A stretch of DNA of 64,000 nt from Sphingobium indicum B90A (GTDB taxonomy: Bacteria > Pseudomonadota > Alphaproteobacteria > Sphingomonadales > Sphingomonadaceae): contig NZ_CP013070.1 of NCBI RefSeq assembly GCF_000264945.2, forward strand, positions 1,798,001 through 1,862,000, in the 5' to 3' direction. The notes under the pieces are model-generated. The model was not told where the DNA came from. It saw only the letters and a program-made list of their open reading frames with translations, and ran no database searches. The position numbers and the translations under genes are program-made. This document shows positions 1-16,361 of this stretch, one piece after another (position 1 is the stretch's first letter; every line of letters begins with the position of its first letter).

Positions 1-821
1 ACGACCTGCGACCGCGTGCCGGTGGCCGCCACCACCTGGTCCAGCAGTTGCAGGATGCTGTATTCCTCCGGATTGCCCAGATTGACGGGCGCCATGTCGG
101 ACAAGGGCGCCTCCATCAATCGGATCAGCCCGTCGACCATGTCCGACACGAAGCAGAAGCTGCGCGTCTGCGATCCGTCGCCATAGATGGTGATGGCGTC
201 GCCCGACAACGCCTGGCAGACGAGGTTGGAGATCACGCGGCCATCGTCGGGATGCATGTTCGGGCCATAGGTGTTGAAGATCCGCGCCACCCGCACATCG
301 GCGCGGCCCAGCCGGGCGAAGTCGAAGGCCATGGCCTCCGCCGCGCGCTTGCCCTCGTCATAGCAGGCGCGGGGGCCGGTGCAGTTCACCCAGCCACGAT
401 AGTCCTCGCGCTGGGGATGCGCCTCCGGATCGCCATAGACCTCGCTGGTGGAGGTGAGCAGGAAGCGCGCGCCAACCTGCTCCGCCAGCCGCAGCAGGCG
501 ATCGGTTCCGACTACGCTGGTCAGCATCGTATGTTCGGGATCGGCCTGATATTGCGGCGGCGAAGCCGCGCAGGCGAGATTGTAGATGCGGCTGATGTCG
601 CGCCTGCGCGTGACCGCATCGGGCAGGGGATCGACGATGTCGCCGCGCACGAAGGTGAAGGCGCGATGCCCCTCCAGCATCCGCAGGTTGACCTCCCGCG
701 AGGTCTGGAGGTTGTCGAGGCAGATGACCTCATGCCCTTGATCCAGCAGCGTCCGGCACAGATGCGACCCGATGAAGCCGGCTCCTCCGGCCACCAGGGC
801 TGTTTCACGCTTTCCGTTCAT
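1..821 (-). CDS. UDP-glucuronate decarboxylase (UDP-xylose synthase)-like SDR enzyme, 3' end outside window
   Basis: About 273 residues are visible and the C-terminus lies beyond the left edge. This is an extended short-chain dehydrogenase. It has the NAD-binding GGAGFIG near residue 11, the TSTSEVYGD segment, and the catalytic pair in the YxxxK form YDEGK inside GPRACYDEGKR, followed by RIFNTYGP. This combination is typical of UDP-xylose synthase, which oxidises and decarboxylates UDP-glucuronate to UDP-xylose in the cytoplasm. The ATG at 821 follows a GGAGG ribosome site. The gene lies 32 bp after the preceding glycosyltransferase and looks like a continuation of the same leftward operon. 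Substrate is assigned by family only. Confidence 0.8.
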   Translation of the reverse strand, partial: MNGKRETALVAGGAGFIGSHLCRTLLDQGHEVICLDNLQTSREVNLRMLEGHRAFTFVRGDIVDPLPDAVTRRRDISRIYNLACAASPPQYQADPEHTMLTSVVGTDRLLRLAEQVGARFLLTSTSEVYGDPEAHPQREDYRGWVNCTGPRACYDEGKRAAEAMAFDFARLGRADVRVARIFNTYGPNMHPDDGRVISNLVCQALSGDAITIYGDGSQTRSFCFVSDMVDGLIRLMEAPLSDMAPVNLGNPEEYSILQLLDQVVAATGTRSQV

Positions 822-853
822 CGACCCTCCGTCCTTTTCTGTCCTGTCGTTCT

Positions 854-1930
854 TCATTCGGCGGCCGCCATGTCCCGCGTGCGCATCCGGGCGGCCCCCT
901 GCAGCCAGTTTTCCAGCTCGGCGGCGCGGTTGCGCGATATATGCCGGTCCAGGATGCGGCGGCGGGCGGCCTCGCCTATATCGGCGCGATCCTCATGCAG
1001 GGCGACGATCACCTGCTCCGGATTCCAGGCGAAGATGATTTCGCGATTGGGCTCCAGCAGTTCGTTGAGTCCCGGCCAGACGTCGGAGATGATCGGCGTG
1101 CCGCAGGCCGCCGCCTCGAACAGCCGGACGGAGGGGGACCAGCCCGCCTCGATCATGTCGGCGCGCGTGACGTTCAGCGTGTAGCGCGAGGCGGAATAGA
1201 AAGCGGCGTGGTCGTGCGGGGCGAGATGCTCGATCCGCTCCACATTGGCGGGCCAGTCGATGTCATCGGGATATTGCGGCCCGGCGACGACGAAACGCCT
1301 GTCGGGCAGCAGCCGCGCCGGTTCGATCAGCAGCTTCTCCAGGGTGGGCTGGCGATCCGGGCTGTAGGTGCCGAGATAGGAGAGATCCCATTTCTTCGGC
1401 ACGTCCATCGGCCGATAGGCCGACGCATCCACCGAGCAATAGAGCGCCCGCGCCATGGGGGAACGATAATGCCGCTCCAGCAGGTCGAGCGTGGGGCCGC
1501 CGGTGAAGGAGCAATAGCAGTCATAGCCCGCGATCAGTTCCGCCGACAGATAGTCGCACCGCCCTTCGCGCAGCGCCGCCAGCGTGACGGGCGTATCGAT
1601 GTCGTAGAAGGCGGTGACCCCGCGCGCGGTGCGCTGCACATAATGGCCGACCGCGATGCCGTCGGGCACATAGGAGCCGACCATGACCGCATCCGCCGTC
1701 TCGATCTCATGCCGCCAATCTTCCAGCGCTTCCACGCTGTCGTAGAATTCCAGCCGGCAGAAGGCGGGATCGATGAGGTCGCGCTGGCCGGCATACCAGG
1801 GGACGTCCCGCTCCAGGAAGCGTATCTCATGCCCGCGCCCGGCAAAGGCGGAGAGCAGGGCACGGAAGGTCGTGGCATGACCATTGCCCCAGGATGAAGA
1901 CAGGCTGAGGCCGAGGACGACGAGTTTCAT
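854..1930 (-). CDS. CgeB-family glycosyltransferase (copy 1)
   Basis: A 358-aa protein of the CgeB / Glyco_trans_1_2 type (GT-B fold). The N-terminal Rossmann part begins MKLVVLGLSLSSSWGNGHAT. The C-terminal nucleotide-sugar half carries the RLFEAAACGTPIISD segment near residues 269-283 and a conserved SYLGTYSPDRQ near 184-194. No signal peptide or membrane segment is seen, so it should act on the cytoplasmic face. Its ATG overlaps the stop of the upstream gene by 4 bp, which implies translational coupling. It is one of three consecutive CgeB-like genes. Donor and acceptor cannot be read from the sequence. Confidence 0.82.
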   Translation of the reverse strand: MKLVVLGLSLSSSWGNGHATTFRALLSAFAGRGHEIRFLERDVPWYAGQRDLIDPAFCRLEFYDSVEALEDWRHEIETADAVMVGSYVPDGIAVGHYVQRTARGVTAFYDIDTPVTLAALREGRCDYLSAELIAGYDCYCSFTGGPTLDLLERHYRSPMARALYCSVDASAYRPMDVPKKWDLSYLGTYSPDRQPTLEKLLIEPARLLPDRRFVVAGPQYPDDIDWPANVERIEHLAPHDHAAFYSASRYTLNVTRADMIEAGWSPSVRLFEAAACGTPIISDVWPGLNELLEPNREIIFAWNPEQVIVALHEDRADIGEAARRRILDRHISRNRAAELENWLQGAARMRTRDMAAAE

Positions 1931-3033
1931 GCTCCCTCCATCTGATGCTGCCTGGCGGCGCGCCGCCCGGATCGGTCGCGCAGGATTTCGTCGACCTGAT
2001 GCCCGCGCAGTTCATAGCTGTGTTCGGCCCGGACACGGGCGAGCGCCGCCTGTCCGATCGCCCGCGCCCGCTCCGGCGTCAGCGCCGCCAGATGATCCGC
2101 CACATCCTGCCCGTCGCGGGCGACCAGTACCTCCTCGTCCGGGGTCAGGAACATCTCTATCCCCTCCCACGCATCGGTGATCAGGCAGGCCCCTGCTCCC
2201 GCCGCCTCGAACACGCGGGTCGCGGGGGAAAAGCCGATATGCGCCATGCTGTCGCGGGCAACGTTCAGCACGGCCAGCGGGCTGCAATTGAAGGCGTTGT
2301 GCTCGGCGGTGTAGATATGGCCGCGATGGCGGACATTGCCGGGCATCGCCTTGCTATCCCAGCCATTGCCGCCGATCAGGAATTGCCGGCCGGGCAACAA
2401 GGCGGCGGGTTTCAGGAAGAATTCCTCCACCCGCGCCTCCCGGTCGGGCAGGCGGTTGCCAAGGAAGGCGAGATCGGCGGTGAAGCGCGGATCGGGCGGC
2501 ACGGGATGATGGCTCTGCGGATCGAGCGCATTGTAGACGGGAACGCACTCCACCGCGCCGAAGCCGCGATAGGCGTTCACCACCGGATCGCCGCCGCCAT
2601 AGGTCAGCACCATGTCGAGTCCGGGCAAGGCGCGGCGCACGGCATGGTCCGGATCGGCGCGCATCTCGTCCAGCGTCGCGGCGGCGTCCACATCCCAGAA
2701 GATGCGCAGCGCATGGGGCCGGGCGCGGCGCATGACGCCGTCCAGCAGCTCGTCGTCGAACACGCCGACGCCGCTGGCCTTCACGACGACGTCGGCCTCG
2801 GCGGCCTCGTCCATCACGCCCTTCAGCGCGTCCGGCGTCGCGGGATAGACCACCACGCGCGCCCAGTCGGGCGGGTCGATGTCACGATGCTGCTGCCGGT
2901 CGAAGGCATCCGGTTCATAGAATGCGATGCGATGGCCATGCCGGGCAAGCTGCTCCAATATCCCGCGATAATAGGTGGCTGCGCCGTTCCAGTAGGAGGA
3001 AAGCAGGCTGGAGCCGTAAAAGGCGATCTTCAT
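1927..3033 (-). CDS. CgeB-family glycosyltransferase (copy 2)
   Basis: A 368-aa paralogue of the genes on both sides. It begins MKIAFYGSSLLSSYWNGAAT and has LAFLGNRLPDR near residue 188, an N-A-R motif near 258 and RVFEAAGAGACLITD near 273-287, matching the C-terminal domain of CgeB-type GT-B transferases. It overlaps both neighbours by 4 bp. Sequence divergence from copies 1 and 3 argues for a different acceptor or linkage rather than redundancy (inference). Likely cytoplasmic. Confidence 0.82.
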   Translation of the reverse strand: MKIAFYGSSLLSSYWNGAATYYRGILEQLARHGHRIAFYEPDAFDRQQHRDIDPPDWARVVVYPATPDALKGVMDEAAEADVVVKASGVGVFDDELLDGVMRRARPHALRIFWDVDAAATLDEMRADPDHAVRRALPGLDMVLTYGGGDPVVNAYRGFGAVECVPVYNALDPQSHHPVPPDPRFTADLAFLGNRLPDREARVEEFFLKPAALLPGRQFLIGGNGWDSKAMPGNVRHRGHIYTAEHNAFNCSPLAVLNVARDSMAHIGFSPATRVFEAAGAGACLITDAWEGIEMFLTPDEEVLVARDGQDVADHLAALTPERARAIGQAALARVRAEHSYELRGHQVDEILRDRSGRRAARQHQMEGA

Positions 3034-4133
3034 GCAACGCTCCTGATCGGCTGCGCGTCGAGCGACGCCGTGATGTCCATCAGCTGCTGCGCGCGATGGG
3101 CGCAGCTATGGCGGCTGCGGATCGTCTCCAATCCGTTGCGGACGAGGCTGGCGCGAAGGTCCGCATCCTCGCTGATGGCGCGCATATGGCTCTTCATCTC
3201 GTCGCCGGTCCGGGCGAAGAGGAAATCCTCGCCGGGCCGGAACAGCCCTTCGCTGTCGTCCCAAGGGGCGGACAGCAACGGAATGCCGCAGGCCAGCGCC
3301 TCGAACACCCGGATCGTCGGAATGCCGGGCAGAAGCTGCGTATAATAGCGGCGCGGCACATGAACGGTGGCAAGGTGGCGGGCGAAGACCTCCGGCGCGG
3401 CGGCATTGGGCGCCCAGCCATGATAGGCGACGCCGTAGCGTTCCAGCGTCGCCAGCGCCTCCTGAGGATAGCGCACGCCATAGATGTCGAGCGGGAGCTT
3501 CGCCTGCCGCGCCGGGCGGAAGAGGTAATCCTCCAGCTCGGCGGTACGCTCCCCATCGCCCCAGTTGCCGATCCAGACGAGGCCGCTTTTCTCACCGGGC
3601 AAGGGACGGAAATGCCTTGTGTCGGCGGCTTCATGCCAAGTCCAGACGCACTCGCCCCAGCCCCAGCTTCGATAGACTTCCGACAAGGCCTCGCCGAACG
3701 CCAGCACACCGTCATAGCCCGACAGGTCGAACGCCCGGATCGCATCCGGATCGGACACGGCGCGATGATGGGTGTCATGGAACAGCAGGGTGAAATCGCT
3801 CCGCCCCGCCCGGATCAGGCCGAGCGCGCCGACCAGCGACGGTTCGTTCCATTCATGGACGATGACGAGGTCGGCGCCGTCGACCAGCGCGACCAGATCG
3901 TCCTTCATGCCATAGCCTTGGGCACGGAGTTCGGGATAGGCCTGACGATAGGCGGCGAGCCCCTCCTCCCCATGGTCGGACAGGAGGTTGGCGAGGCTCC
4001 AATTGCCCTCCGGCTCCAGCGCCAGCACGTCATGGCCCATGGCCGCGAGTTCGCGCAGCACGCCGCGCAGGAAATGGGCATTGCCGTGGTTCCAGCAGGA
4101 CAGCAGCGAATGGGTGAAATAGAGGATCTTCAT
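3030..4133 (-). CDS. CgeB-family glycosyltransferase (copy 3)
   Basis: A 367-aa protein beginning MKILYFTHSLLSCWNHGNAH. The open frame extends further upstream, but the ATG at 4133 restores the 4-bp overlap with the preceding gene and gives the same N-terminal motif as copies 1 and 2. Domain features are LVWIGNWGDGERTAELE in the middle and TIRVFEALACGIPLLSAPWDD near residues 280-300. It is a GT-B enzyme of the CgeB type, acting on an unknown acceptor, probably the growing glycan made by this operon. Confidence 0.82.
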   Translation of the reverse strand: MKILYFTHSLLSCWNHGNAHFLRGVLRELAAMGHDVLALEPEGNWSLANLLSDHGEEGLAAYRQAYPELRAQGYGMKDDLVALVDGADLVIVHEWNEPSLVGALGLIRAGRSDFTLLFHDTHHRAVSDPDAIRAFDLSGYDGVLAFGEALSEVYRSWGWGECVWTWHEAADTRHFRPLPGEKSGLVWIGNWGDGERTAELEDYLFRPARQAKLPLDIYGVRYPQEALATLERYGVAYHGWAPNAAAPEVFARHLATVHVPRRYYTQLLPGIPTIRVFEALACGIPLLSAPWDDSEGLFRPGEDFLFARTGDEMKSHMRAISEDADLRASLVRNGLETIRSRHSCAHRAQQLMDITASLDAQPIRSVA

Positions 4134-5212
4134 GCGGCCACCTTCCGCTGGACGGCGCGATAATGGCCGGCCATGTGCGCGGCCGTGGCGGCGGGGGTGT
4201 AGGCGCCCGCCCGCGTCTGGGCGCGCTGGCCCATTTCCACGCGGGTGGCGCCGTCGCCCAGCAATTCCTCTATCGCCCAGGCGAAGCCCTGCGCGTCGCG
4301 AGGATGGACGAAGATGGCGGCGCCATCCCATAGCTCCCGGAAAGTCGGAATATCGGACAGCAGCAGCGCGCAACCGGCCAGCGCCGCCTCCAGCACCGCA
4401 AGGCCGAAGGGTTCGTAAAGCGCCGCCGAAGCGAAGACCGGCCGGCTGGCCAGATGCCGAGCCAGCGCCATGCTGTCGAGCGGGCCGAGCGACACCAGCG
4501 AATGCAGACCGATCCCCGCTCCCTGCGGCCCCTCAAGCGGTCCGGCAGCCCTGAACGGCACGGCGATGCGGGCGGCCGCCTCATCCAGCACCCGGATATT
4601 CTTGCCCTCGTCCCAGAGGCGACCGGCCGTGAACACATGGTCCTGCATCGCCTGCGGCTTCACTGGAAAGGACCGGCCATTATGGACCGCCATGGGGAGC
4701 ACGCCATAGCGGCGGCGCGCCGCCTCCGCAAAAGCCATGCTGGGCGCGATGACGCGGGTCGCCTGCCGAAGGCCGGCCGCGACCAGCGCCGCGCGCCAGT
4801 TGAAATCCTCCGGCATGGGACCGCCGCGCACCGCTTCCCACCAGGTCGCGACGCAACTGTGCAGCAGCGCGATCACCGGGCAGGGATAACGGCCGGCGCT
4901 GACCAGCGCCGGCGTATGCAGTTGCACCGCGTCGACGCGAAGGTCGCCCGCCATTTCCGCCAGCCGCGCTTCGGCCTGCACGATGGGCGCCGCTTCCGCC
5001 GCAAGCCATTCGAGTTCGAGGCCGGTTTCCACCAGATGGCAATTGGCTATGGCCGCCGCCTCCGCCCGCTGCGCCTCGCTCAGCGCAGGCCCCATGACGG
5101 CCAGCGTCACCTGATAGCCATGGGGCTGGAGCGCGCGGATCAGGTCGGTCGAATATTGCCAGACGCCGCCCACCGCGTCGGCGGACAGCAGCAGATGCCC
5201 GCCGCCCCTCAC
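4130..5212 (-). CDS. Glycosyltransferase family 4 protein
   Basis: A 360-aa retaining GT-B glycosyltransferase. The N-terminus LLLSADAVGGVWQYSTDL is the usual glycine-rich acceptor-side loop. The C-terminal half has FTAGRLWDEGKNI near residue 193 and the E-x7-E donor signature in YEPFGLAVLEAALAG near 264-278. No membrane segment is seen. It overlaps the upstream epimerase gene and the downstream CgeB gene by 4 bp each. It probably adds a sugar early in the assembly of the product of this locus. Donor specificity is unknown. Confidence 0.85.
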   Translation of the reverse strand: MRGGGHLLLSADAVGGVWQYSTDLIRALQPHGYQVTLAVMGPALSEAQRAEAAAIANCHLVETGLELEWLAAEAAPIVQAEARLAEMAGDLRVDAVQLHTPALVSAGRYPCPVIALLHSCVATWWEAVRGGPMPEDFNWRAALVAAGLRQATRVIAPSMAFAEAARRRYGVLPMAVHNGRSFPVKPQAMQDHVFTAGRLWDEGKNIRVLDEAAARIAVPFRAAGPLEGPQGAGIGLHSLVSLGPLDSMALARHLASRPVFASAALYEPFGLAVLEAALAGCALLLSDIPTFRELWDGAAIFVHPRDAQGFAWAIEELLGDGATRVEMGQRAQTRAGAYTPAATAAHMAGHYRAVQRKVAA

Positions 5213-6282
5213 AGCGCGCTCGCGGTCATCAGCCTGGGCCCGGCGCTCTCCGCCCGCTCCTCCATCAGCCAGCGGGCCAGATCGGCCACGCCCTGCCGCC
5301 AGGGCTTGCGCGCCTTCAGGTTCAGCGCCGTGCGCGCCGCGCCGGTGTCAGCGACGAAATAGCGCTGGTCGCCCGCCCGCCAGGGCGCGAAGTCGGGCAC
5401 GATGGACTTGCCCAGATGGACGCCGATAAAGGCCAGGATCTGCCGCAGGCTGACGGCATTGTCCGGCCCGCCGCCCAGGTTGAAGGCGCGGCCGCTCACC
5501 CGTCCGATCTGCCGCCAGACCGCCAGATAGGCGTCCACCGCATCCTGCACGTCCAATATGTCGCGCACCTGATGACCGTCGCCATAAAGGGTGATCGGTC
5601 GCCCCTCCAGGGCGCTGATCAGGAAATGCGCGACCCAGCCCTGATCCTCCGTCCCCATCTGCCGCCGGCCGTAGATGCAGCTCATGCGCAGCACAGCGGC
5701 GGGCAGATCGAAACTGCGTGCATAATCCAGCACATATTGGTCCGCCGCGCCCTTGGAACAGCCATAGGGGGTATGGAAATCGAGCGGGCGGCTCTCGTCG
5801 ATGCCATTGGCGCGCAGATGCTCGGCAGCTGGCAGATAAGCGCCGTCGATCAGCGGGAAGTCGAGATCCTCCAGCCCGCCATAGACCTTGTTGGTGGAGG
5901 CGAAGATCACGGGCGGCGGCGCGGCGCGGCGGCGCGCCGCCTCCAGCACGTTGAGCGTGCCGAGCGCGTTCACCTCGAAGTCGGCGCGCGGGTCGGTGAA
6001 GCTGGTGGTGACGGCGACCTGCGCGGCCATGTGGAAGACCGCCTTCGCGCCGGCGACCGCCCGGTCCACCGCCGCATCGTCCCGCACATCGGCGATGACC
6101 GGCGTGATCGCGGCGCCGTGGCGCTGCTCCAGCCAGGCAAGGTTGCGCTCGACACCGGGCCGGGCCAGCGAGTCATAGACGACGACCTGCTCGCCCTCCC
6201 CCGCCAGCCGGTCGGCGATGTTGCAGCCGATGAAACCGGCCCCGCCCGTGACCAGCACGGGCCTTCCGTCGGCGCGCTTCAC
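5209..6282 (-). CDS. NAD-dependent sugar epimerase, CDP-paratose 2-epimerase-like
   Basis: A 357-aa extended SDR. GGAGFIGCNIADRL near residue 11 binds NAD, and the catalytic region reads FASTNKVYG then TPYGCSKGAADQYVLDYA (YxxxK as YGCSK), which closely resembles CDP-paratose/tyvelose 2-epimerases. The GTG at 6282 is chosen because it overlaps the upstream stop by 4 bp and starts just before the Rossmann fold. The longer open frame upstream has no domain match. It would interconvert an NDP-sugar for the glycosyltransferases downstream. The exact sugar is not determined. Confidence 0.82.
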   Translation of the reverse strand: MKRADGRPVLVTGGAGFIGCNIADRLAGEGEQVVVYDSLARPGVERNLAWLEQRHGAAITPVIADVRDDAAVDRAVAGAKAVFHMAAQVAVTTSFTDPRADFEVNALGTLNVLEAARRRAAPPPVIFASTNKVYGGLEDLDFPLIDGAYLPAAEHLRANGIDESRPLDFHTPYGCSKGAADQYVLDYARSFDLPAAVLRMSCIYGRRQMGTEDQGWVAHFLISALEGRPITLYGDGHQVRDILDVQDAVDAYLAVWRQIGRVSGRAFNLGGGPDNAVSLRQILAFIGVHLGKSIVPDFAPWRAGDQRYFVADTGAARTALNLKARKPWRQGVADLARWLMEERAESAGPRLMTASAL

Positions 6283-7391
6283 GCGACCAGCCCCCGCGCT
6301 TCCAGCTCCGCCCGCGCCTGATTGACGCGGTCGTCGGCGGTCTGCCGCGCCACCCATTCGGCCAGCACGGCAAGGCCCTGCTGGAAGTCCTGCCGCGCCT
6401 TGAAGCCCAGCACTTCCTCCGCCTTGCCGGTGTCGCAGAAGCAATGGCGGATGTCGCCGGTCCGCGCCTTGCCGACAATTTCGGGTTCCCCATCGTTCCG
6501 GCCCATCGCCAGCGCAAGCGATTGCGCCACTTCGGTGACGGAACGGTCCTGCCCGGAACCGATGTTGAAGGTGCCGCCCGCCGCCTGCGGCAGTTCCAGC
6601 GCGTCGGCAAAGGCGCGCGCCACGTCGCCGACATGCACGAAGTCGCGGCGCTGCCCGCCATCCTCGAAGATCATCGGCTTCTGCCCGTTCAGCAGGCGGG
6701 ACGCGAAGATCGCCAGCACGCCGGTATAGGGGTTGGAAAGTGCCTGCCCCGGCCCATAGACGTTGAACAGGCGCAGGCAGACGCCCTCCATGCCATAGGG
6801 CGCGGTCATGATATGGGTCGTGCGTTCCTGCACATATTTGTTGAGCGCGTAGATGGAGGCGAGATTGGGCTGCTTCCATTCCGGCGTGGCGATGGGCGTA
6901 AGCGGGCGACCCTGTCGGTCGACCGGATCCCAGATCTTCTGATTGTCGCGGATCGACCCGCGCTCCGCGTCCTGGACGATCCGGCCATCCTCGTCGCGGT
7001 ACAGCCCCTCGCCATAGATGCTCATCGAGGAGGCTGTCACCACGCGCCGCACCGGACGGTCGATCAGCCGTTCGAAGAGGACGGCGGTGCCGACGTCGTT
7101 GACCGAGGTATAGCGCTCCACCTCATACATGGACTGGCCGACCCCGACTTCGGCGGCGAGGTGGATGACGGCGTCGACACCCTGCAAGGCGCGGTCCACC
7201 GCATGGCCGTTGCGTATGTCGGCGCGGATCAGCTCGACCTCCGGATCGAGGTCGGCCGGCCGTTCAATGTCTCCGTGAACCTGCTCTATCATGCTGTCCA
7301 GCACGCGAACGGCATGGCCGCGTGCCAGCAATTCCCGGCAAACCGTCCGGCCGATGAAGCCGGCGCCACCCGTGACAAGTATCTTTTCCAC
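6279..7391 (-). CDS. NAD-dependent epimerase/dehydratase, dTDP-L-rhamnose 4-epimerase-like
   Basis: A 370-aa extended SDR with VTGGAGFIG at the N-terminus, SSMSIYGEGLY, and YALNK as the catalytic YxxxK. The insert between them (about 40 residues, ending PNLASIYALNK) resembles dTDP-L-rhamnose 4-epimerases. I place the start at the GTG at 7391 because AGGGGAG lies 5 bp upstream. An in-frame ATG at 7406 would put that ribosome site inside the gene. It is the first gene of the leftward operon. Sugar identity is uncertain. Confidence 0.82.
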   Translation of the reverse strand: MEKILVTGGAGFIGRTVCRELLARGHAVRVLDSMIEQVHGDIERPADLDPEVELIRADIRNGHAVDRALQGVDAVIHLAAEVGVGQSMYEVERYTSVNDVGTAVLFERLIDRPVRRVVTASSMSIYGEGLYRDEDGRIVQDAERGSIRDNQKIWDPVDRQGRPLTPIATPEWKQPNLASIYALNKYVQERTTHIMTAPYGMEGVCLRLFNVYGPGQALSNPYTGVLAIFASRLLNGQKPMIFEDGGQRRDFVHVGDVARAFADALELPQAAGGTFNIGSGQDRSVTEVAQSLALAMGRNDGEPEIVGKARTGDIRHCFCDTGKAEEVLGFKARQDFQQGLAVLAEWVARQTADDRVNQARAELEARGLVA

Positions 7392-7475
7392 GGCCGCTCC
7401 CCTCATTGATGATGATTTGCCAAGGATTGGCTGCGGGAACGTTCCATTCCCCGCAACCGTGGCAACGGGACCATC

Positions 7476-7501
7476 AACATCTTCTTCTACCGCCAGGTTC
7501 C
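7476..7501 (-). promoter_or_regulatory. EcfG-type general stress promoter (leftward)
   Basis: Reading leftward, GGAAC at 7501-7497 is followed after 17 bp by TGTT at 7479-7476. The alphaproteobacterial general-stress sigma factor EcfG uses GGAAC-N16/17-CGTT, so this is one base off. Transcription would start near 7468, giving a leader of about 77 nt to the GTG at 7391. Confidence 0.5.
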
Positions 7502-7626
7502 GGTAATATTTCGAGAAATCCTTTAATATCCACTCAGTACAAACTCATGAGAATAATCTATGTTATACGGGTGACACACAAGTTATTCACGATGTTTCCA
7601 TTTACCTTTTTGAGAATTACGTCTAT

Positions 7627-7652
7627 GGAACTTTCCTTCTCCCGATCCTGTT
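7627..7652 (+). promoter_or_regulatory. EcfG-type general stress promoter (rightward)
   Basis: GGAAC at 7627-7631 and TGTT at 7649-7652 are separated by 17 bp, one base from the EcfG consensus. The predicted start point near 7660 is only a few bases from the ATG at 7664, so the phosphatase message may be nearly leaderless or use the ATG at 7670. Confidence 0.5.
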
Positions 7653-7663
7653 AAGCAGCATCT

Positions 7664-8290
7664 ATGTTGATGCTGTCTTCCTCCCGCGAACCGCCGCTTA
7701 CCTGCTTTCACCTGATCCGGCATGGGATGCATGGCGAATATGGGCGGCTGTTGAGCGGGCGGGCGGGCATGTCGCCCCTCACCGCGCGCGGCCGCGTGCA
7801 GGCAGCCGGCGTCGCGGCATGGCGTGGCCTGCACGGCATAGACGCCATCCATGCCAGCCCGCGCCGGCGCACGGTGGAAACCGCGTCGATCATCGCCCAA
7901 GCCCTGGGGCTGGAGGTCGTCATCGCCCCCGATCTGGACGAGGTCGATTTCGGCTCCTGGAACGGACGGTCCTTTCCGGAACTGGAGCAAGACCCGCGCT
8001 GGCGCGATTGGAACCGCAGCCGCTCCACCAGCGCGACGCCGGGCGGAGAGACGATGGGCGGCGCAGTCGCCCGGACCGTCCGGCATCTGGAAACGGTCGC
8101 GCGGGAAAACACGGGGGCCACCATCCTCTGCGTCACCCATTGCGACATCATCCGCGGGACGATCGCGCATTATCTCGGCCTCAGCCTCGACAATCTGCTG
8201 AGGTTCGAAGTCGATCCCGGTTCGATCAGCACGATCCTGCTGGGGTCGGCCGGCGGCAGCGTGACCCGATTGAACGAGGTGCCCGCATGA
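7664..8290 (+). CDS. Histidine phosphatase family protein (phosphoglycerate mutase-like)
   Basis: A 208-aa protein with the phosphohistidine signature LIRHGMHGEYG near residue 17, SPRRRTVETASII near 64, the acidic residue in DEVDFGSWNG near 90, and the second catalytic histidine in CVTHCDIIRG near 158. These are the four features of branch-1 histidine phosphatases. It opens the operon that contains inositol-3-phosphate synthase, so it might dephosphorylate the product of that enzyme or another sugar phosphate (inference). No clear ribosome site precedes ATG 7664 or the alternative ATG 7670. Its stop overlaps the next start by 4 bp. Confidence 0.82.
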   Translation: MLMLSSSREPPLTCFHLIRHGMHGEYGRLLSGRAGMSPLTARGRVQAAGVAAWRGLHGIDAIHASPRRRTVETASIIAQALGLEVVIAPDLDEVDFGSWNGRSFPELEQDPRWRDWNRSRSTSATPGGETMGGAVARTVRHLETVARENTGATILCVTHCDIIRGTIAHYLGLSLDNLLRFEVDPGSISTILLGSAGGSVTRLNEVPA

Positions 8291-9111
8291 AGACAGTGAA
8301 TCTCGCAGCCGACCGCAAGACCGACGCGTTGCGCCGCCAGATCGAGGAATTGGGCCCATGGTTCCACAATCTTCGCATCGGCGGCATGGAAACCGCGCCG
8401 GACCATTTCCTGGGCGATTATCCCGCCTTCAAGTTCGCGCGCTTTGCGGACGCCATTCCCGAAGACCTGTCGGGAAAATCGGTGCTCGACATCGGCTGCA
8501 ACGCCGGCTTCTATTCGATCGAGATGAAACGCCGCGGCGCGGCGGAAGTCCTCGGCATCGATTCCGACGACCGCTATCTTGCCCAGGCCCGTTTCGCCGC
8601 CGAAGCGCTGGGCCATGACGGCATCGAGTTCCGCAACCTGTCCGTCTATGATGTCGGAAAGCTCGGCCGCCGCTTCGACCTCGTGATCTTCATGGGCGTG
8701 CTCTACCATCTGCGGCACCCTCTGCTCGCGCTCGACCTGATCCGCGAGCATGTGGCGGGCGACATGATGCTGTTCCAGACGATGCAGCAGGGTTCGTCCG
8801 ACGTGCTGCTGGTGCCGGAGGATCACCCTTTCCACGTCCCCGGCACCAGCCGCCCGCCCGGCTTCTTCGACAATCCGGCCTATCCGCGCCTGCACTTCAT
8901 CGAACGGAAATTCGCGCATGACTGGACCAACTGGTGGGCCCCGAACAAGGCCGGCGCGCAGGCGCTGCTGCGCGCCGCCGGCTTCACCATAGAGGCCGAG
9001 CCGGAGGAGGAAGTCTATCTCTGCCGCGCCGCCCCGGTCCCGTTCGGGGAGCTGATGGGCAGGCCGGCCGTCTATCCAGCCAAAGGACCAGAGGAGGGAA
9101 CCGACGCATGA
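8287..9111 (+). CDS. SAM-dependent methyltransferase, Rta_06860-like family
   Basis: A 274-aa class I methyltransferase. The SAM-binding motif is VLDIGCNAGFYS near residue 70, with GIDSDDRYL as motif II and FMGVLYHLRHPLLALD near 140. The sequence resembles the TIGR04290 (Rta_06860) family as I remember it; the family name is from memory and should be checked. The ATG at 8287 has GAGG upstream and a 4-bp overlap with the phosphatase stop. The longer in-frame extension to 7819 lies inside the phosphatase gene and is not used. It probably methylates a hydroxyl of the cyclitol or sugar made here. Confidence 0.8.
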   Translation: MKTVNLAADRKTDALRRQIEELGPWFHNLRIGGMETAPDHFLGDYPAFKFARFADAIPEDLSGKSVLDIGCNAGFYSIEMKRRGAAEVLGIDSDDRYLAQARFAAEALGHDGIEFRNLSVYDVGKLGRRFDLVIFMGVLYHLRHPLLALDLIREHVAGDMMLFQTMQQGSSDVLLVPEDHPFHVPGTSRPPGFFDNPAYPRLHFIERKFAHDWTNWWAPNKAGAQALLRAAGFTIEAEPEEEVYLCRAAPVPFGELMGRPAVYPAKGPEEGTDA

Positions 9112-10031
9112 TCGAAGCCGCGATGATCTGGAACGAACCCAACAACAAGTCGCATTGGGACCCGGAGGTCGACCCCGACTGGTCGCTCTATGCCGACATG
9201 GTGATCCGCGCGGGCGCCGCAATTGCCGACGCCAATCCCGCCGTGACCCGCGTGCTGGGCGGCATGTCGCCCATCGATCCGCATTGGGTGAACCGGATGC
9301 GCGACCATGGTGCGCTGGACGCGGTGGATGTCGTGGCGGTGCACGGCTTCCCGCTCGACTGGAACCTCTGGCCGCTCAACGACTGGCCGGCCAGGATCGC
9401 GGAGATCGAGGCGGTGGCGCCCGACAAGCCGGTCTGGGTGACGGAGGTCGGCGTCGGCTCCTTCGGCGCGGAGGAAGTGCAGGTCTTCGGCCTCAACCGC
9501 ACCGCCGAACTGCTGATCGGGCGGGTGCCGCGCATCTACTGGTACAGCCTCTACGACCTGCCGCAGGAATGGGGCGCGACCACGCGCCATCGCGAGGCGG
9601 AAGGATCGAGCTATTACCGCCATTTCTACATGGGGCTGATCCGCGCCGACGGCACGCCCAAGCCCGCACTGGAGGACTATGCCAGGGTCGCTGGCGAGAT
9701 GGGGCTGATGCAATGGTTCCATTTCAATGATCCGCGCCTGAACGATGCCGTCGACTGGATGAAGCGGCTGGGGGTGAAGCAGTTGCGCACCGGCCTGAGC
9801 TGGGCCGACAGCTTCCGTCCCAATGCGGTCGACTGGTTCGACCGGCAGATGGAGGCGCTCGGCGATTTCGACGTCACCGTCACCTTCTGCTTCACGCCCG
9901 AACATCTGGGCATCGCCCCCCATCACAGCAGCGCGGTCCACGATCCGCAGGCCTTCGCGGATTTCTGCGCCTGGATGATCGACCGCTACGCCCCGGCATC
10001 GGCCGCCCAGCCGGTCGCCCGCACCGCCTGA
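9108..10031 (+). CDS. Clan-A glycoside hydrolase-like protein with apparent permuted barrel order
   Basis: A 307-aa protein. Residues 7-13 read IWNEPNN, the acid/base motif of clan-A TIM-barrel hydrolases. VTEVG near 111-115 supplies the likely nucleophile Glu113. The segment from about 205 on (WFHFNDPRLNDAVDWMKRLG, then LRTGLSWAD and FCFTPEHLG) looks like the first strands of such barrels, which normally precede the NEP motif. The start at ATG 9108 has GAGGAGGGAA upstream and overlaps the methyltransferase stop by 4 bp. No signal peptide is seen, so it is probably cytoplasmic. It resembles beta-xylosidase-type proteins, but its substrate is unknown. It could remodel or release the glycoside. 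Confidence 0.7.
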   Translation: MIEAAMIWNEPNNKSHWDPEVDPDWSLYADMVIRAGAAIADANPAVTRVLGGMSPIDPHWVNRMRDHGALDAVDVVAVHGFPLDWNLWPLNDWPARIAEIEAVAPDKPVWVTEVGVGSFGAEEVQVFGLNRTAELLIGRVPRIYWYSLYDLPQEWGATTRHREAEGSSYYRHFYMGLIRADGTPKPALEDYARVAGEMGLMQWFHFNDPRLNDAVDWMKRLGVKQLRTGLSWADSFRPNAVDWFDRQMEALGDFDVTVTFCFTPEHLGIAPHHSSAVHDPQAFADFCAWMIDRYAPASAAQPVARTA

Positions 10032-10043
10032 CGGAGACGCATC

Positions 10044-11159
10044 ATGCAAGCCATCAACATCGGCATCGTCGGCGTCGGCAATTGCGCCAGTTCGCTGGTG
10101 CAGGGCCTGTCGCACTATCGCGCTGAAAGCAACGACCATAGCGGCCTGATGCATTGGGAACTGGGCGGCTATCGCCCCTGCGACATCCGGTTGGCCGCCG
10201 CCTGGGACATCGACCGGCGAAAGGTCGGCCGCGACATCGCCGAAGCGATCTTCGCCAGGCCCAATTGCACCCAGACCTTCTGCGGCGACGTCCGCCCAAG
10301 CGGGGTCAAGGTGGAGATGGGCCGCCTGCTGGACGGCTGCGCGGACCACATGGCCGACCATCCCGACGAGCGCACCTTCCTGCCTGCCGACGCCGCCGAA
10401 CCCGACCGCGCACAGGTGGTAAAGCGGCTGCGCGAGGCGAAGGTGGACGTGCTGCTCAACTATCTGCCCGTGGGATCGCAGCAGGCGACGGAATTCTACG
10501 CGCAATGCGCGCTGGAGGCGGGCGTTGCCTTCGTCAACAACATTCCGGTCTTCATCGCCAGCGACCCCGCATGGGCGGACCGGTTCGAACGGGCCGGCGT
10601 GCCGATCATCGGGGACGACATCAAGGCGCAACTGGGCGCGACCATAGTCCATCGGGTTCTCACCGACCTGTTCGCCAAGCGGGGCGTGAAGCTGGACCGC
10701 ACCTATCAGCTCAACACCGGCGGCAATACCGACTTCCTCAACATGTCGAACCGTTCGCGGCTGAAGTCGAAGAAGATTTCGAAGACCGAAGCCGTGCAGT
10801 CGGTCGCGGAAACCCGGCTGGAGGATGAGAATATCCATATCGGCCCGTCCGACTATGTCGCCTGGCAGAATGACAACAAGGTCTGTTTCCTGCGCATGGA
10901 AGGGCAACTCTTCGGCGGCGTGCCGATGAACCTGGAACTGCGCCTGTCGGTGGAGGACAGCCCCAATTCGGCGGGCGTCGCCATCGACATGATCCGTTGC
11001 GCCAAGATAGCGCTGGATCGCAGTCTGGGCGGCCCCATCCATCCGGCGGCCGCCTATTTCTGCAAGCATCCGCCGATGCAGATGACCGATGACCGGGCGC
11101 ATGAAGCGCTGGAGGCCTTCATTCGTGGGGAGGGCGCGATAGCGCTGGCGGCGGAATGA
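10044..11159 (+). CDS. ino1: Inositol-3-phosphate synthase
   Basis: A 371-aa myo-inositol-1(3)-phosphate synthase of the short archaeal/actinobacterial type. It converts glucose 6-phosphate to inositol 3-phosphate with internal NAD oxidation and reduction. Evidence is the N-terminal GIVGVGNCASSLVQG, the signature NTGGNTDFLNM near residue 225, SKKISKTEAV with the catalytic lysines, HIGPSDYVAW near 264 and DSPNSAGVAIDMIR near 307. It is 12 bp after the glycosidase gene and overlaps the dehydrogenase by 4 bp. It defines the operon as one that makes a cyclitol. Confidence 0.93.
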   Translation: MQAINIGIVGVGNCASSLVQGLSHYRAESNDHSGLMHWELGGYRPCDIRLAAAWDIDRRKVGRDIAEAIFARPNCTQTFCGDVRPSGVKVEMGRLLDGCADHMADHPDERTFLPADAAEPDRAQVVKRLREAKVDVLLNYLPVGSQQATEFYAQCALEAGVAFVNNIPVFIASDPAWADRFERAGVPIIGDDIKAQLGATIVHRVLTDLFAKRGVKLDRTYQLNTGGNTDFLNMSNRSRLKSKKISKTEAVQSVAETRLEDENIHIGPSDYVAWQNDNKVCFLRMEGQLFGGVPMNLELRLSVEDSPNSAGVAIDMIRCAKIALDRSLGGPIHPAAAYFCKHPPMQMTDDRAHEALEAFIRGEGAIALAAE

Positions 11160-12160
11160 GCGAATTGCTGATGGCGGAGCGCGAGCCGGCCGAAAAGGCG
11201 GCGACCATGCGCGCGGCGGTCGTGACCGACCCCGGCGCGGTGCGGATCGACCAGGTTCCGATGCCGCGGCCCGGCCCCGGTCAGGTCCGCATAAGGCTGG
11301 AGGGATGCGGCGTCTGCGCCTCCAACCTCACCCCCTGGGCGGGACCGGAATGGCAAGGCTTCCCGCTGGAGCCGGGCGCGCTCGGCCATGAGGGCTGGGG
11401 CATTGTCGATGCCGTCGGGAAGGACGTGACCTCCGTAACGGTCGGGGACCGCGTGGCGGCGCTTTCCTATGCCAGCTATGCCGACCATGATCTGGCGGAC
11501 GAAAGCGCCATCGTGCGGCTGCCGCCCGAACTGGACGGGCTGCCCTTCCCCGGCGAGCCCCTGGGGTGCGCGTTCAACATCTTCCGCCGCGCCGACATCC
11601 GGCCGGGCCAGACCGTCGCGATCATCGGCATCGGCTTTCTGGGGGCGCTGCTCACCCGGCTGGCGACGGAGGCCGGAGCCCGCGTCATCGCCATTTCGCG
11701 GCGCCCCTCCTCGCTCGACCTCGCCCGCGATCACGGCGCGGCGGAGACGATCGCGATGGACGATCATCAGGCGATCATCGATCGGGTCGGCGCGCTCACC
11801 GAAGGACGCTTCTGCGAACGGACGATAGAGGCGGTGGGCAAGCAATGGCCGCTCGACCTGGCGGGCGAACTCACCGCCGAACGCGGCAAGCTGATCGTCG
11901 CGGGCTATCATCAGGACGGGCCGCGCCAGGTGAACATGTGGCTGTGGAACTGGCGCGGCATCGACGTCATCAACGCGCATGAACGAGATCCGGCGGCCTA
12001 TGTCGGGGGCATGAGGGAAGCGGTCGCGGCCGTCGCCTCCGGCCGCATCGATCCCGCGCCGCTCATCACCCACCGCTATCCGCTCGACCGGCTGGGCGAG
12101 GCGCTGGACGCCACGCGGGACAAGCCGGACGGCTTCGTAAAGGCGATCATCGTCCCATGA
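11156..12160 (+). CDS. Zinc-dependent alcohol dehydrogenase (MDR superfamily)
   Basis: A 334-aa medium-chain dehydrogenase. Zinc ligands are visible in CGVCASN and LGHEGWG, and the cofactor site is GIGFLGALL near residue 160. The four-cysteine structural zinc loop of classical alcohol dehydrogenases is missing, as in many sugar or cyclitol dehydrogenases of this family. The ATG at 11156 overlaps the ino1 stop by 4 bp, so the first 17 residues may be a leader before MRAAVV. It probably oxidises a hydroxyl of an inositol derivative (inference from context). Confidence 0.83.
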   Translation: MSELLMAEREPAEKAATMRAAVVTDPGAVRIDQVPMPRPGPGQVRIRLEGCGVCASNLTPWAGPEWQGFPLEPGALGHEGWGIVDAVGKDVTSVTVGDRVAALSYASYADHDLADESAIVRLPPELDGLPFPGEPLGCAFNIFRRADIRPGQTVAIIGIGFLGALLTRLATEAGARVIAISRRPSSLDLARDHGAAETIAMDDHQAIIDRVGALTEGRFCERTIEAVGKQWPLDLAGELTAERGKLIVAGYHQDGPRQVNMWLWNWRGIDVINAHERDPAAYVGGMREAVAAVASGRIDPAPLITHRYPLDRLGEALDATRDKPDGFVKAIIVP

Positions 12161-13185
12161 GTGCCGCCATCGCCCCTGCCCCCGCCCTCCTCACCCGCCC
12201 GCGCATCGGCTTTCTGGGCGTGGGCTGGATCGGCCGCAACCGGATGGAGGCCATGCTGGCGACCGGCGGGATAGAGGCCGCCGCCATTGCCGACGCCCTG
12301 CCCGGCAACGGTGCGGAGGCAGCCCTGCTCGCTCCCGATGCGGTGCGGCTGGACTCGCTCGACGCCTTGCTGGAACAGCCGCTCGACGGCATCGTCATCG
12401 CCACCCCCAGCGCGCTCCACGCAGAACAGTCGATCCGCGCGCTGGAGCGGGGCGTGCCGGTCTTCTGCCAGAAGCCGCTGGGCCGCACCGGGGCGGAGGT
12501 CCGCGCAGTGATCGACGCCGCCCGCGCCGCTGACCGGCTGCTGGGCGTCGACCTGTCCTATCGCGGCACCGCAGGAATGCGTGCCCTGCGGGATCATGTC
12601 CGCGCCGGCCAACTGGGCCAGGTTCATGCCGTCGACCTCATCTTCCACAACGCCTATGGCCCGGACAAGCCGTGGTTCCACGATCCCTTACTGTCGGGCG
12701 GCGGCTGCATGATGGACCTTGGCGTGCATCTGATCGACCTGGCGCTCTGGGTGCTCGACTTCCCTGAGGTGGAGCGGATCGATGCCGCCCTCTTCGCGAA
12801 AGGACACCCGCTGGAGGATCGCGGCCGGCAGGTCGAGGATCTCGGCATGGCGACGCTGCATCTGGCGGACGGGCGCATGGTCCGGATCGCCTGCTCCTGG
12901 AACCTCCATGCGGGGCAGGATGCGGTGATCGCCGCCGATTTCTACGGCGACAAGGCGGGCGTCGCCTTCCGCAACATCGACGGCTCCTTCTACGACTTCC
13001 GGGCAGAGCTGTTCCGCGGCACGGCGCGGGAGGCGCTGTCCGAGCCTGGCGATCCATGGGGCGGCCGGATGGCGGGGGAATGGGCCGAAAAGCTGGCCCG
13101 CTCCCCCCGCTTCGATCCGGGATGCGAAGAACTGGCGCATGTGGCCGACATCATGGACGGCATCTATGCCGCCGCGACAAGATAA
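12157..13185 (+). CDS. Gfo/Idh/MocA family oxidoreductase
   Basis: A 342-aa NAD(P)-dependent dehydrogenase with an N-terminal Rossmann fold (IGFLGVGWIGRNRM near residue 17) and the family EKP-type motif as CQKPLGR near 107. The C-terminal sheet domain has GGGCMMDLGVHLIDLALW near 188, which carries the catalytic His/Asp region. Inositol dehydrogenases belong to this family, which fits a place two genes after ino1. It overlaps the alcohol dehydrogenase stop by 4 bp. Substrate is not proven. Confidence 0.85.
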   Translation: MSAAIAPAPALLTRPRIGFLGVGWIGRNRMEAMLATGGIEAAAIADALPGNGAEAALLAPDAVRLDSLDALLEQPLDGIVIATPSALHAEQSIRALERGVPVFCQKPLGRTGAEVRAVIDAARAADRLLGVDLSYRGTAGMRALRDHVRAGQLGQVHAVDLIFHNAYGPDKPWFHDPLLSGGGCMMDLGVHLIDLALWVLDFPEVERIDAALFAKGHPLEDRGRQVEDLGMATLHLADGRMVRIACSWNLHAGQDAVIAADFYGDKAGVAFRNIDGSFYDFRAELFRGTAREALSEPGDPWGGRMAGEWAEKLARSPRFDPGCEELAHVADIMDGIYAAATR

Positions 13186-13200
13186 GGAAAGGAATGCATC

Positions 13201-13482
13201 ATGAGCGCATCGGACACGACCACCGACCATGACACCATCCGCAAATGGGTGGAAGATCGCGGCGGCCGCCCCACAATCGTCAAGGCGACCGAGGACAATG
13301 GAAAGGGCGGCGGCCTGCTGCGCATCGACTTTCGCGAGGAGGACGACGCGCTGGACGAAATCGAGTGGGATGAATTCTTCCGCATCTTCGATGAGAACAA
13401 GCTCGCCTTCCTCTATCAGGACAAGACGAAGGACGGGAAGGAAAGCCGGTTCAACAAATTCGTGGAACGCGACAAGGGGTAA
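13201..13482 (+). CDS. Small acidic conserved protein
   Basis: A 93-aa, strongly acidic protein without signal peptide or cysteine. Its opening TDHDTIRKWVEDRGGRP and the EIEWDEFFRIFDENKLAFLY segment match a small family widespread in alphaproteobacteria, sometimes labelled as a glucan-branching-enzyme fragment with no basis I know of. It is 15 bp after the Gfo/Idh/MocA gene and ends the operon. A short GC hairpin (GGGCGC...GCGCCC) follows at 13485-13500. Function unknown. Confidence 0.7.
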   Translation: MSASDTTTDHDTIRKWVEDRGGRPTIVKATEDNGKGGGLLRIDFREEDDALDEIEWDEFFRIFDENKLAFLYQDKTKDGKESRFNKFVERDKG

Positions 13483-13520
13483 GGGCGCAACGGGCGCCCG
13501 CTGACCATTGCTGCCAAGGG

Positions 13521-14894
13521 TCACGCGAAACGGTCCAACACCCTCCCCAGCCATCCCCGCGAATAAGCAAGGCCGTGGTAGAGCTTCAGCATGGCCCGCG
13601 CCCAGAGCAGGAACAGGCCGGGCCTGCCCACAACCTCGGCCAGCCGGAACACCGTGCCGCTGCCCCTGCTGATCGCGTGGCGCAGCCGATAGATCATCCT
13701 GCGCCGCCACGGCAGGCCCGCGCTGCCCGGCCGCACGCGCTTGCGCGGCCGGACACCCGCCTTTCGCCAGCAAAGCCGATAGGCCAGCCCTTCCCGCCGC
13801 TGGCGAAAGCCCGCCGCTTGCGTTTCCCGCACGAAACCGGCGGCGACGGGCTGCAAGGCCAGCCTTCCCGCATCGATCCCTTCGCGCAGCATCGCATGCA
13901 GCGCGGACGATCGCACCACCACGACATTGGTGCCGCGCCCGTCGGAGGAATAGGGTTCCACCCAGGCATCGCCAAAAGCAATGTCGGCGGTCTCCGCCAC
14001 CACATCGTCGCAAAAGTCGCAGGCGCGGTTCTGGAAGAATCCCGCCCCCCAGTCCCCATCCACCAGGTGCCACCAATCCTGCATCCGCTGCTCGCCGGCG
14101 TGGTCGGCAAGCCGCGCCCTGTACCAGTTGGCCGGCCGCGCCGCGTCCTTCACCCGATAGTCGATCTGCCGGACCGACGCCGGGCGCAGACCCATCTGCC
14201 GGGCGAAGCTGGCCACCATATGACGGCTTTTCATATGCCCGCACACCAGGCCCAAGGTGAAGACAATGCGCGCCCGCAGCAACGGATCGGCGTCACAGGC
14301 GAGATGCACCGCCTTGATGAAGCAGGGAATGCCGACGACGGCATAGCGGCCCGGCACCTCCCGGATCTCGCGCAGCACTTCGGCCATGTCGACGGGATAG
14401 TAGCGCGACTGCGCCCCCTCCCACAAAGCGGGAAGATCGCGCGCTATGCGATAGCGGAACAGACGCCCCTCGGTCGCGGGATCGGCCCGCGTCACATGCG
14501 CCACGCCGTCCACCATCCCCCGCCGCAACAGTTCGCCCGCGACCCAGCTTGCCATGCCGCCCGAACTGCCCCTCTCGCGATAACCTGCTTCGGCGGCATG
14601 GCCGACATAGGCGGCATCGAAACGGCCGATATGATCATCCTGCGCCGCTGCCGCCGGAAAACGCCGCCGGGCGATCTCATCCTCATCCATGGCGCGCGGA
14701 GAGAAAGGGCAGCATGCCGAAAGGCCTTCGCTGGGCCGCCGATACCAGTCCCGGTCGCCGACCGGATTAAGATGCCCGTCCTTGTTCCATTCCAGCCGGG
14801 CCTGTCCCGGCCGGGCCTGCGCGACGCAACCGCCGCAGCCGATGCAGAGGCCCGACGAAACCATGTCACGGGGGCTGACCGCGGCAGCGCTCAT
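13521..14894 (-). CDS. FrhB-like iron-sulfur protein (coenzyme F420 hydrogenase/dehydrogenase beta subunit family) of glycan loci
   Basis: A 457-aa protein. The N-terminal ferredoxin-like motif is CIGCGGC near residues 17-23, without the usual fourth cysteine nearby. ACCPFSP comes later near 60. The central FrhB domain has GIPCFIKAVHLAC and VCGHMKS, and a C-x2-C pair sits in RACDFCDD near 290. F420 itself need not be the cofactor: such proteins are common next to pyruvyl transferases in polysaccharide clusters, where their role is unsettled. It overlaps the upstream pyruvyl transferase gene by 4 bp. Confidence 0.78.
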   Translation of the reverse strand: MSAAAVSPRDMVSSGLCIGCGGCVAQARPGQARLEWNKDGHLNPVGDRDWYRRPSEGLSACCPFSPRAMDEDEIARRRFPAAAAQDDHIGRFDAAYVGHAAEAGYRERGSSGGMASWVAGELLRRGMVDGVAHVTRADPATEGRLFRYRIARDLPALWEGAQSRYYPVDMAEVLREIREVPGRYAVVGIPCFIKAVHLACDADPLLRARIVFTLGLVCGHMKSRHMVASFARQMGLRPASVRQIDYRVKDAARPANWYRARLADHAGEQRMQDWWHLVDGDWGAGFFQNRACDFCDDVVAETADIAFGDAWVEPYSSDGRGTNVVVVRSSALHAMLREGIDAGRLALQPVAAGFVRETQAAGFRQRREGLAYRLCWRKAGVRPRKRVRPGSAGLPWRRRMIYRLRHAISRGSGTVFRLAEVVGRPGLFLLWARAMLKLYHGLAYSRGWLGRVLDRFA

Positions 14895-15955: not shown

Positions 15956-15956
15956 C

Positions 15957-16361
15957 TCAATCCCCCGCGCAGGCGGCATAGCTTTTTTCCTCCACCAGTT
16001 CGGATTGCAGCAGGCGGTTGATCTCCCGCTTGATCGCGGCGCGCCGGTCGTTCATCCGGTAGACCGACCGGGCAAGGTCGATGAAGGACGCGCCGAACCG
16101 CGCCGCCGCCTCCTCCCCCCGGATCGCGTCCTCGATTTCCCAAAGCGCCTCGTTCACCCGCTTCAGGCTTTCGACCAGTCCGCCCACGGCCCCATCCCGC
16201 AGGGCCTGCCCGCCAATGGCGCTCAGCAACCGATATTCCCTGCCCACATTGTCCCGCGCCGCGGGCGTGGCGATCCGCTCCTGCTTGATCTGCAGGATCG
16301 TCATCTTGTCCAGCAACTCCCCCCAGGACACGGGCACGGACGGGGTCGGCATGTCTCCCAT
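15957..16361 (-). CDS. DUF6165 family protein
   Basis: A 134-aa soluble protein with PVSWGELLDKMTILQIKQERI near residues 9-29, the hallmark of DUF6165, and a mostly helical charged remainder (RMNDRRAAIKREINRLLQSE). The family is found in surface polysaccharide loci, but I know of no assigned activity. It lies between the pyruvyl transferase and the GT9-like gene, 6 bp from the latter, so it belongs to that operon. Confidence 0.75.
   Translation of the reverse strand: MGDMPTPSVPVSWGELLDKMTILQIKQERIATPAARDNVGREYRLLSAIGGQALRDGAVGGLVESLKRVNEALWEIEDAIRGEEAAARFGASFIDLARSVYRMNDRRAAIKREINRLLQSELVEEKSYAACAGD

Follow-up and report, generated by a model that had tools for sequence, protein, structure and literature searches.

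What do two divergent operons that combine inositol synthesis with a set of sugar enzymes make, and do they make it together? The locus lies at the start of a 64,000-nucleotide stretch of the 3.9-Mb Sphingobium indicum B90A genome (NZ_CP013070.1, positions 1,798,001 to 1,862,000), here called the window. The original prediction described a stress-controlled pair of divergent operons with a shared intergenic region and proposed a modified cyclitol product; the genes, the strands, and the intergenic region (7407 to 7663) were as claimed. The leftward operon encodes three nucleoside diphosphate (NDP)-sugar SDR enzymes and four glycosyltransferases (GTs), in the order SDR_f, SDR_e, GT_d, GT_c, GT_b, GT_a, SDR_g. 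The rightward operon encodes a histidine phosphatase (HP), a TIGR04290 methyltransferase (MT), a glycosidase (GH), the inositol-3-phosphate synthase Ino1 (INO), a zinc-binding dehydrogenase (ADH), a Gfo/Idh/MocA oxidoreductase (GFO), and a 93-codon open reading frame (ORF), ORF93. Most adjacent genes overlap by four bases, as is typical of operons. Every gene listed in the prediction is present; the 307-codon glycosidase gene at 9108 to 10031 had been overlooked. The two operons travel as one unit across genomes, and we see an even chance that this unit is induced through EcfG and makes a soluble, methylated, inositol-bearing oligosaccharide.

Conservation of the two operons

Ino1 was scanned across named genomes, with genome samples taken as even draws, and at least 594 relatives and at least 80 loci were found. 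Most of the 80 matches listed were proteobacterial or desulfobacterial, and the rest included some archaea among other groups; Ino1 itself is not rare in Gram-negative bacteria, and the earlier statement that such inositol metabolism is unusual in Gram-negative bacteria was too strong. A glycosidase of the window type, termed permuted for reasons given below, was present at 13 of these 80 loci, and the other 67 stretches, some of them short, contained Ino1 without it. Ten of the 13 had the divergent set (Sphingobium, Sphingomonas, Sphingosinicella, Paracoccus, and one metagenome-assembled genome [MAG]), and loci L027 and L029 had parts of the set only. In L080, from a Desulfuromonadales MAG, INO, GH, HP, and MT stood alone at 10001 to 13626, with a permuted glycosidase of 58% identity. 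Either transfer or a binning error may account for this set.

Within the family, the permuted glycosidase was strongly matched in 45 of 397 genomes, S. indicum B90A counted, and five further genomes had weak matches of 24 to 30% identity; its closest named relatives were from Sphingobium. Forty GH loci of the family were fetched, and the 33 that were free of contig-end cuts were used for gene counts. All six leftward genes tested were near GH in 32 of the 33, the exception being L181, and the rightward genes were present at these 33 loci as follows: INO, 32; MT, 32; HP, 27; ADH, 26; and GFO, 25. All twelve genes were found in 19 of the 33. The original prediction had set the conservation of both operons in other genomes as a check, and these counts bear it out.

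The association between Ino1 and the permuted glycosidase was also close. At 55 permuted-GH loci, tblastn found Ino1 in 53, with the copy of L194 cut by a contig end and that of L210 lying ~9 kb off. Two genomes with the permuted glycosidase had no Ino1 at the locus; G395 carries it at another site, and G905 lacks it entirely. Among 41 congeneric genomes, Ino1 and the permuted glycosidase occurred in the same five and neither occurred in the other 36, a match with a chance probability of 1.3e-6 when kinship is ignored.

With the genes arranged differently, most of the set was found on pSymB of Sinorhizobium meliloti, in Azospirillum, and in Roseomonas mucosa, where HP matched as two pieces. 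Plasmids of Paracoccus yeei carry the whole set. Genome G1087 (L165) has INO, GH, HP, and MT together, with no GT or SDR match within the fetched 20 kb. The glycosidase match of this genome (L136/L165) contains one TGA. A first tree looked as if rhizobial-type and sphingomonad-type clusters had recruited Ino1 independently; we do not claim this, because an approximately unbiased (AU) test did not reject a single clade (p 0.34).

The glycosidase of the rightward operon

The sole Pfam match of GH fell narrowly under the cutoff (20.8 versus 21 bits). Its N terminus reads MIEAxxIWNEPN, which we take to be the motif that follows strand 4 in clan GH-A. Homologues in seven genomes of other families, termed canonical here, matched GH in two swapped pieces, approximately query residues 188 to 295 and then 3 to 188. 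A profile of 52 permuted sequences likewise gave two swapped domains in 6/6 canonical proteins, and rotating this profile at residue 196 gave a single contiguous domain in 6/6, each with a higher score. The rotated profile, with one canonical sequence included, retrieved PslG (E value, 9.7e-8) and GH39 beta-xylosidases, and the unrotated profile found PslG at an E value of 0.013 in two swapped pieces.

The AlphaFold2 model of GH is an eight-stranded barrel (pLDDT, 87; pTM, 0.88) whose strands run 4-5-6-7-8-1-2-3, as judged from E10 and E113. In GH39 enzymes, the acid/base and nucleophile glutamates follow strands 4 and 7 of the clan GH-A numbering. E10 and E113 are invariant in the 52 sequences and end the first and fourth strands of the model, corresponding to canonical strands 4 and 7. 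VIA-align overlaid GH residues 1 to 196 on PslG 156 to 356 at 2.2 to 2.3 Å with 23 to 24% identity over 176 residues, and the PslG overlays ranked 30, 33, and 44 of 50 by Z. Foldseek returned generic barrels only, which fits the swapped strand order. GH begins directly at a barrel strand, and its first methionine is conserved in at least 90% of the 52 sequences; the start is therefore real and leaves no space for a signal sequence. Profiles and model together identify GH as a circularly permuted GH39/PslG-like barrel with its halves swapped and a predicted retaining glycosidase. It shares with GH39 and PslG the two catalytic glutamate positions and the barrel fold but differs in starting at canonical strand 4, in its 307-residue length without a signal stretch, and in its biosynthetic operon. 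No permuted GH39 was found described in the open-licence literature.

Promoter motifs, enzyme families, and neighboring genes

The EcfG motif, GGAAC-N17-20-GTT, was taken from PMC6599016. It occurs upstream of both operons in the window, in keeping with the predicted stress control as far as promoter motifs can indicate it. Forty-one distinct intergenic regions of <400 bp were scanned, with dinucleotide shuffles as the control. The motif was found on the rightward strand in 21 regions, on the leftward strand in 20, and on both in 15, versus 0.37, 0.44, and 0.02 expected from the shuffles. At the same loci, a site on either strand was present in 6 of 90 other gaps of 80 to 400 bp versus 26 of the 41 regions between the operons. 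The rightward site lay 25 to 60 bases from the start in 18 of 21 cases. S. meliloti has the motif before SDR_f, ADH, and INO, and the S. indicum B90A genome contains NepR. The main text of the Sphingomonas melonis paper from which the motif comes (PMC6599016) does not contain the word "inositol." These motifs support placing the cluster under EcfG general stress control.

SDR_g best matched UDP-glucuronate decarboxylase 1 (2b69) among solved structures, at 349 bits versus 154 for the next family; no NCBIfam cutoff was reached. In both S. meliloti and P. yeei, the gene in this position carries the annotation "UDP-glucuronic acid decarboxylase family." SDR_g is thus predicted to be close to UDP-glucuronate decarboxylase. 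For SDR_e, the best solved match was CDP-tyvelose 2-epimerase (9rl0; 262 bits, next family 117), with no cutoff reached among the best 25 NCBIfam models, and the nearest solved relatives of SDR_f were generic epimerases. GT_a is presumably CgeB-like. The solved matches of GT_d were weak and confined to its C-terminal part (PimA, 30 bits; Tll1590, 29; 3c4q/3c48, 23). We take 3c48 to be MshA; PimA and MshA use inositol-type acceptors.

The identity of Ino1 was supported by homology: INO exceeded the PF01658 cutoff (128 versus 27 bits) and aligned over nearly its full length with 1GR0, an actinobacterial-type Ino1 (414 bits). It remained below the cutoff of the mycothiol-type equivalog TIGR03450 (455 of 638 bits). 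The best NCBIfam model for HP was TIGR03848 (MSMEG_4193), at 133 bits and below the cutoff of 204, and its nearest relatives were phosphoserine and cobalamin-pathway phosphatases. ADH and GFO were considered as inositol enzymes. The best model was IolM for ADH (105 of 450 bits) and IolG for GFO (90 of 355 bits), both far under the cutoffs, and relatives of 69% and 58% identity, respectively, lie in a cluster of the Ino1-free genome G651. The assignment as inositol dehydrogenases was accordingly rejected.

The window resembles the mycothiol pathway in its actinobacterial-type Ino1, its GT4 enzyme, and its phosphatase with TIGR03848 as the best model. It differs in that INO, HP, and GT_d score below the corresponding models, in having no MshB- or MshC-like gene within the cluster, to which annotation was confined, and in its extra glycosyltransferases, SDR enzymes, methyltransferase, and glycosidase. 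The MT family, TIGR04290, and TIGR04295 are both named without a function. TIGR04295 B12-radical-SAM proteins or their relatives occurred at nine loci of one survey and in Azospirillum, and the one scanned scored 704 bits; the annotation of the window cluster includes no such gene.

Ino1 outside the cluster has other neighbors. Six noncluster Ino1 loci were scanned, with one or two neighbors each, and a nucleotidyl (NTP) transferase, a CDP-alcohol transferase, or both stood beside Ino1 in five (L009, L014, L023, L034, and L043) and not in L057. The L009 NTP transferase best matched inositol-phosphate cytidylyltransferase (93 of 580 bits). These neighborhoods look like a lipid or di-inositol-phosphate route. 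The CDP-inositol routes, to inositol phospholipid or di-inositol-phosphate, also need Ino1 but differ from the window cluster, in which the phosphatase occupies the place of the NTP/CDP-alcohol transferase.

The coordinates of the locus are given in the table. Crp-family regulators flank the cluster on both sides (window 18754 to 19482 and L152 7343 to 8101), and HTH_Crp_2 was found in 7 of 89 flanking ORFs of other loci. To the left of the cluster lie an HWE histidine kinase and a DUF4142 gene. A 944-amino-acid ORF at window 52891 to 55725 lies inside the lowest-GC stretch of the window (0.587 at 54001 to 56000).

Features of the divergent locus and its neighbors (window coordinates)
Feature	Position	Strand	Description
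SDR_g	1-857	-	UDP-glucuronate decarboxylase-like; continues left past window start; whole gene L152 11796-12857
GT_a	854-1930	-	Glycosyltransferase; PF13524
GT_b	1927-3033	-	Glycosyltransferase; PF13524
GT_c	3030-4133	-	Glycosyltransferase; PF13524
GT_d	4130-5212	-	GT4-type glycosyltransferase
SDR_e	5209-6282	-	NDP-sugar epimerase; nearest solved relative CDP-tyvelose 2-epimerase
SDR_f	6279-7406	-	NDP-sugar epimerase or dehydratase
EcfG-like promoter motif	7476-7501	-	GGAAC-N18-GTT, leftward operon
EcfG-like promoter motif	7627-7652	+	GGAAC-N18-GTT, rightward operon
HP	7664-8290	+	Histidine phosphatase; PF00300, 144 bits
MT	8287-9111	+	TIGR04290 methyltransferase; 388 bits, cutoff 300
GH	9108-10031	+	Predicted circularly permuted GH39/PslG-like glycosidase, 307 codons
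INO	10044-11159	+	Inositol-3-phosphate synthase (Ino1); PF01658
ADH	11156-12160	+	Zinc-binding dehydrogenase
GFO	12157-13185	+	Gfo/Idh/MocA oxidoreductase
ORF93	13201-13482	+	93-codon ORF; no Pfam match; relatives near cluster in some other loci
FrhB-type protein	13521-14894	-	Occasional neighbor; 2/33 uncut family loci, also Paracoccus, S. meliloti
Polysaccharide pyruvyl transferase family	14891-15979	-	Occasional neighbor; same loci as FrhB (2/33 uncut)
DUF6165 protein	15957-16361	-	Occasional neighbor

Weighing the candidate products

The position of the phosphatase and the weak PimA and MshA matches of GT_d suggest a route in which an inositol phosphate is glycosylated, dephosphorylated, extended, and methylated. 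Alongside the computed gene content, conservation, permutation, promoter motifs, and Ino1/permuted-GH co-occurrence, we infer substrates, step order, product, location, and a protective role. General stress, acting through EcfG, would switch both operons on. Ino1 would convert glucose-6-phosphate to inositol-3-phosphate, to which GT_d would add the first sugar, and the histidine phosphatase would then strip the phosphate, in the manner of mycothiol synthesis. NDP-sugars, including one of the UDP-xylose type and a 2-epimerised sugar, would come from the three SDR enzymes; GT_a to GT_c would lengthen the chain, and MT would methylate it. The permuted glycosidase, probably cytoplasmic, may act close to the inositol end, where it would either trim or transfer a glycosyl group, and ADH and GFO may tune the oxidation state. 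The pathway would run without a lipid carrier. As the original prediction had stated, no product is named for this gene set in the open-licence literature.

Several observations weigh against this pathway. GT_d did not reach the cutoff of the MshA equivalog (27 of 462 bits). The EcfG motif was absent from both strands of 15 of the 41 regions, including all three Paracoccus regions, and was absent from the P. yeei, Azospirillum, and Roseomonas regions; three of the 15 regions with motifs on both strands (L184, L198, and L199) have one near-palindromic site read twice. The other points come from G905, which has the permuted glycosidase and MT without Ino1 or phosphatase, and from a sister cluster found in the seven canonical-GH genomes. 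Six sister loci were fetched, G1007 not being among them. By tblastn, SDR_e, SDR_f, SDR_g, GT_a to GT_d, and MT were present in all six, and neither Ino1 nor HP was found in any. Judged by gene content, the core chemistry can do without inositol.

Each of the six sister loci encodes the canonical glycosidase as an N-terminal fusion to SDR_e. The fusion has 676 to 705 residues in five loci, and the 1075-residue open frame of L219 takes in SDR_f too. TIGR04295 was found in five of the six and ADH with GFO in one. Ino1 was nowhere in any of the seven canonical-GH genomes, and TIGR04290 was in all seven. Since the sister cluster lacks Ino1, inositol looks like an added module, and Ino1, the phosphatase, and the permutation of the glycosidase appear to go together in it, with G905 as the exception. 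The clustering of the sugar genes and methyltransferase without Ino1 and phosphatase, like the permuted glycosidase, is new beyond the original prediction. A topoisomerase IB gene adjoins the sister cluster in two genomes (L222 14015 to 15040 and L223 5384 to 6595); topoisomerase IB is listed as EcfG regulated in S. melonis (PMC6599016).

The genes could instead build a surface glycan, either an exopolysaccharide or an envelope sugar, with Ino1 feeding a decoration and the permuted glycosidase setting length or trimming in the manner of PslG. GH is closest to PslG, which is named for the Psl exopolysaccharide system, and some loci have pyruvyl transferase and FrhB neighbors, genes that are common in polysaccharide clusters. 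However, the clusters of four named loci have no gene annotated as a flippase, exporter, polymerase, or priming transferase, within plasmid gene tables that are incomplete. None of those families, and no sugar exporter, is among the 21 families common to at least two of the 89 flanking ORFs, a result that covers 25 of the 123 families of these ORFs; one singleton Polysacc_synt_2 was present. GH has no signal-sequence stretch. We consider a surface glycan unlikely.

Also distinctly unlikely is an osmolyte made by Ino1 and the phosphatase, whether free myo-inositol or a cyclitol in methylated or oxidised form, with the sugar operon serving a separate, coregulated product. INO, GH, HP, and MT do occur without sugar-gene matches in L080 and in the fetched 20 kb of L165, but TIGR04290 is also present in the canonical-GH genomes, all Ino1 free, and the leftward genes stay near GH in all uncut family loci except one. 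Highly improbable is a supply of Ino1 product to phosphatidylinositol-type lipids whose enzymes are encoded at other genomic sites: S. indicum B90A has a nucleotidyl transferase-like match ~0.5 kb from a PIP-synthase-like CDP-alcohol transferase (G000:C1:565462-567730 [L226]; 47.8 bits, cutoff 170), but this transferase does not track Ino1, being present in 37 of the 41 congeneric genomes, 33 of these without Ino1, and missing from Ino1-bearing G372.

Set against these alternatives, the inositol-bearing oligosaccharide retains the conserved unit, stress motifs, and Ino1 of the cyclitol product first predicted; the inositol dehydrogenases and Gram-negative rarity did not stand. A further proposal, made tentatively and with clearly less than an even chance of being right, is that a naturally permuted clan GH-A enzyme, alongside an added Ino1-phosphatase module, evolved into an inositol-specific glycosidase or transglycosidase within a carrier-free, stress-protective pseudo-oligosaccharide pathway across Alphaproteobacteria. 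The glycosidase offers a natural pair, permuted with Ino1 and canonical and fused without it, for studying how a permutation relates to substrate change. Sphingomonads and the genera Sinorhizobium, Azospirillum, Roseomonas, and Paracoccus have variants of the unit, and in S. meliloti and many of the sphingomonads general-stress promoter motifs face it. Should the product prove to be an inositol oligosaccharide, soil- and plant-associated bacteria would have a stress metabolite that has gone unrecognised, and the stress response of Alphaproteobacteria would be tied to a definite molecule.

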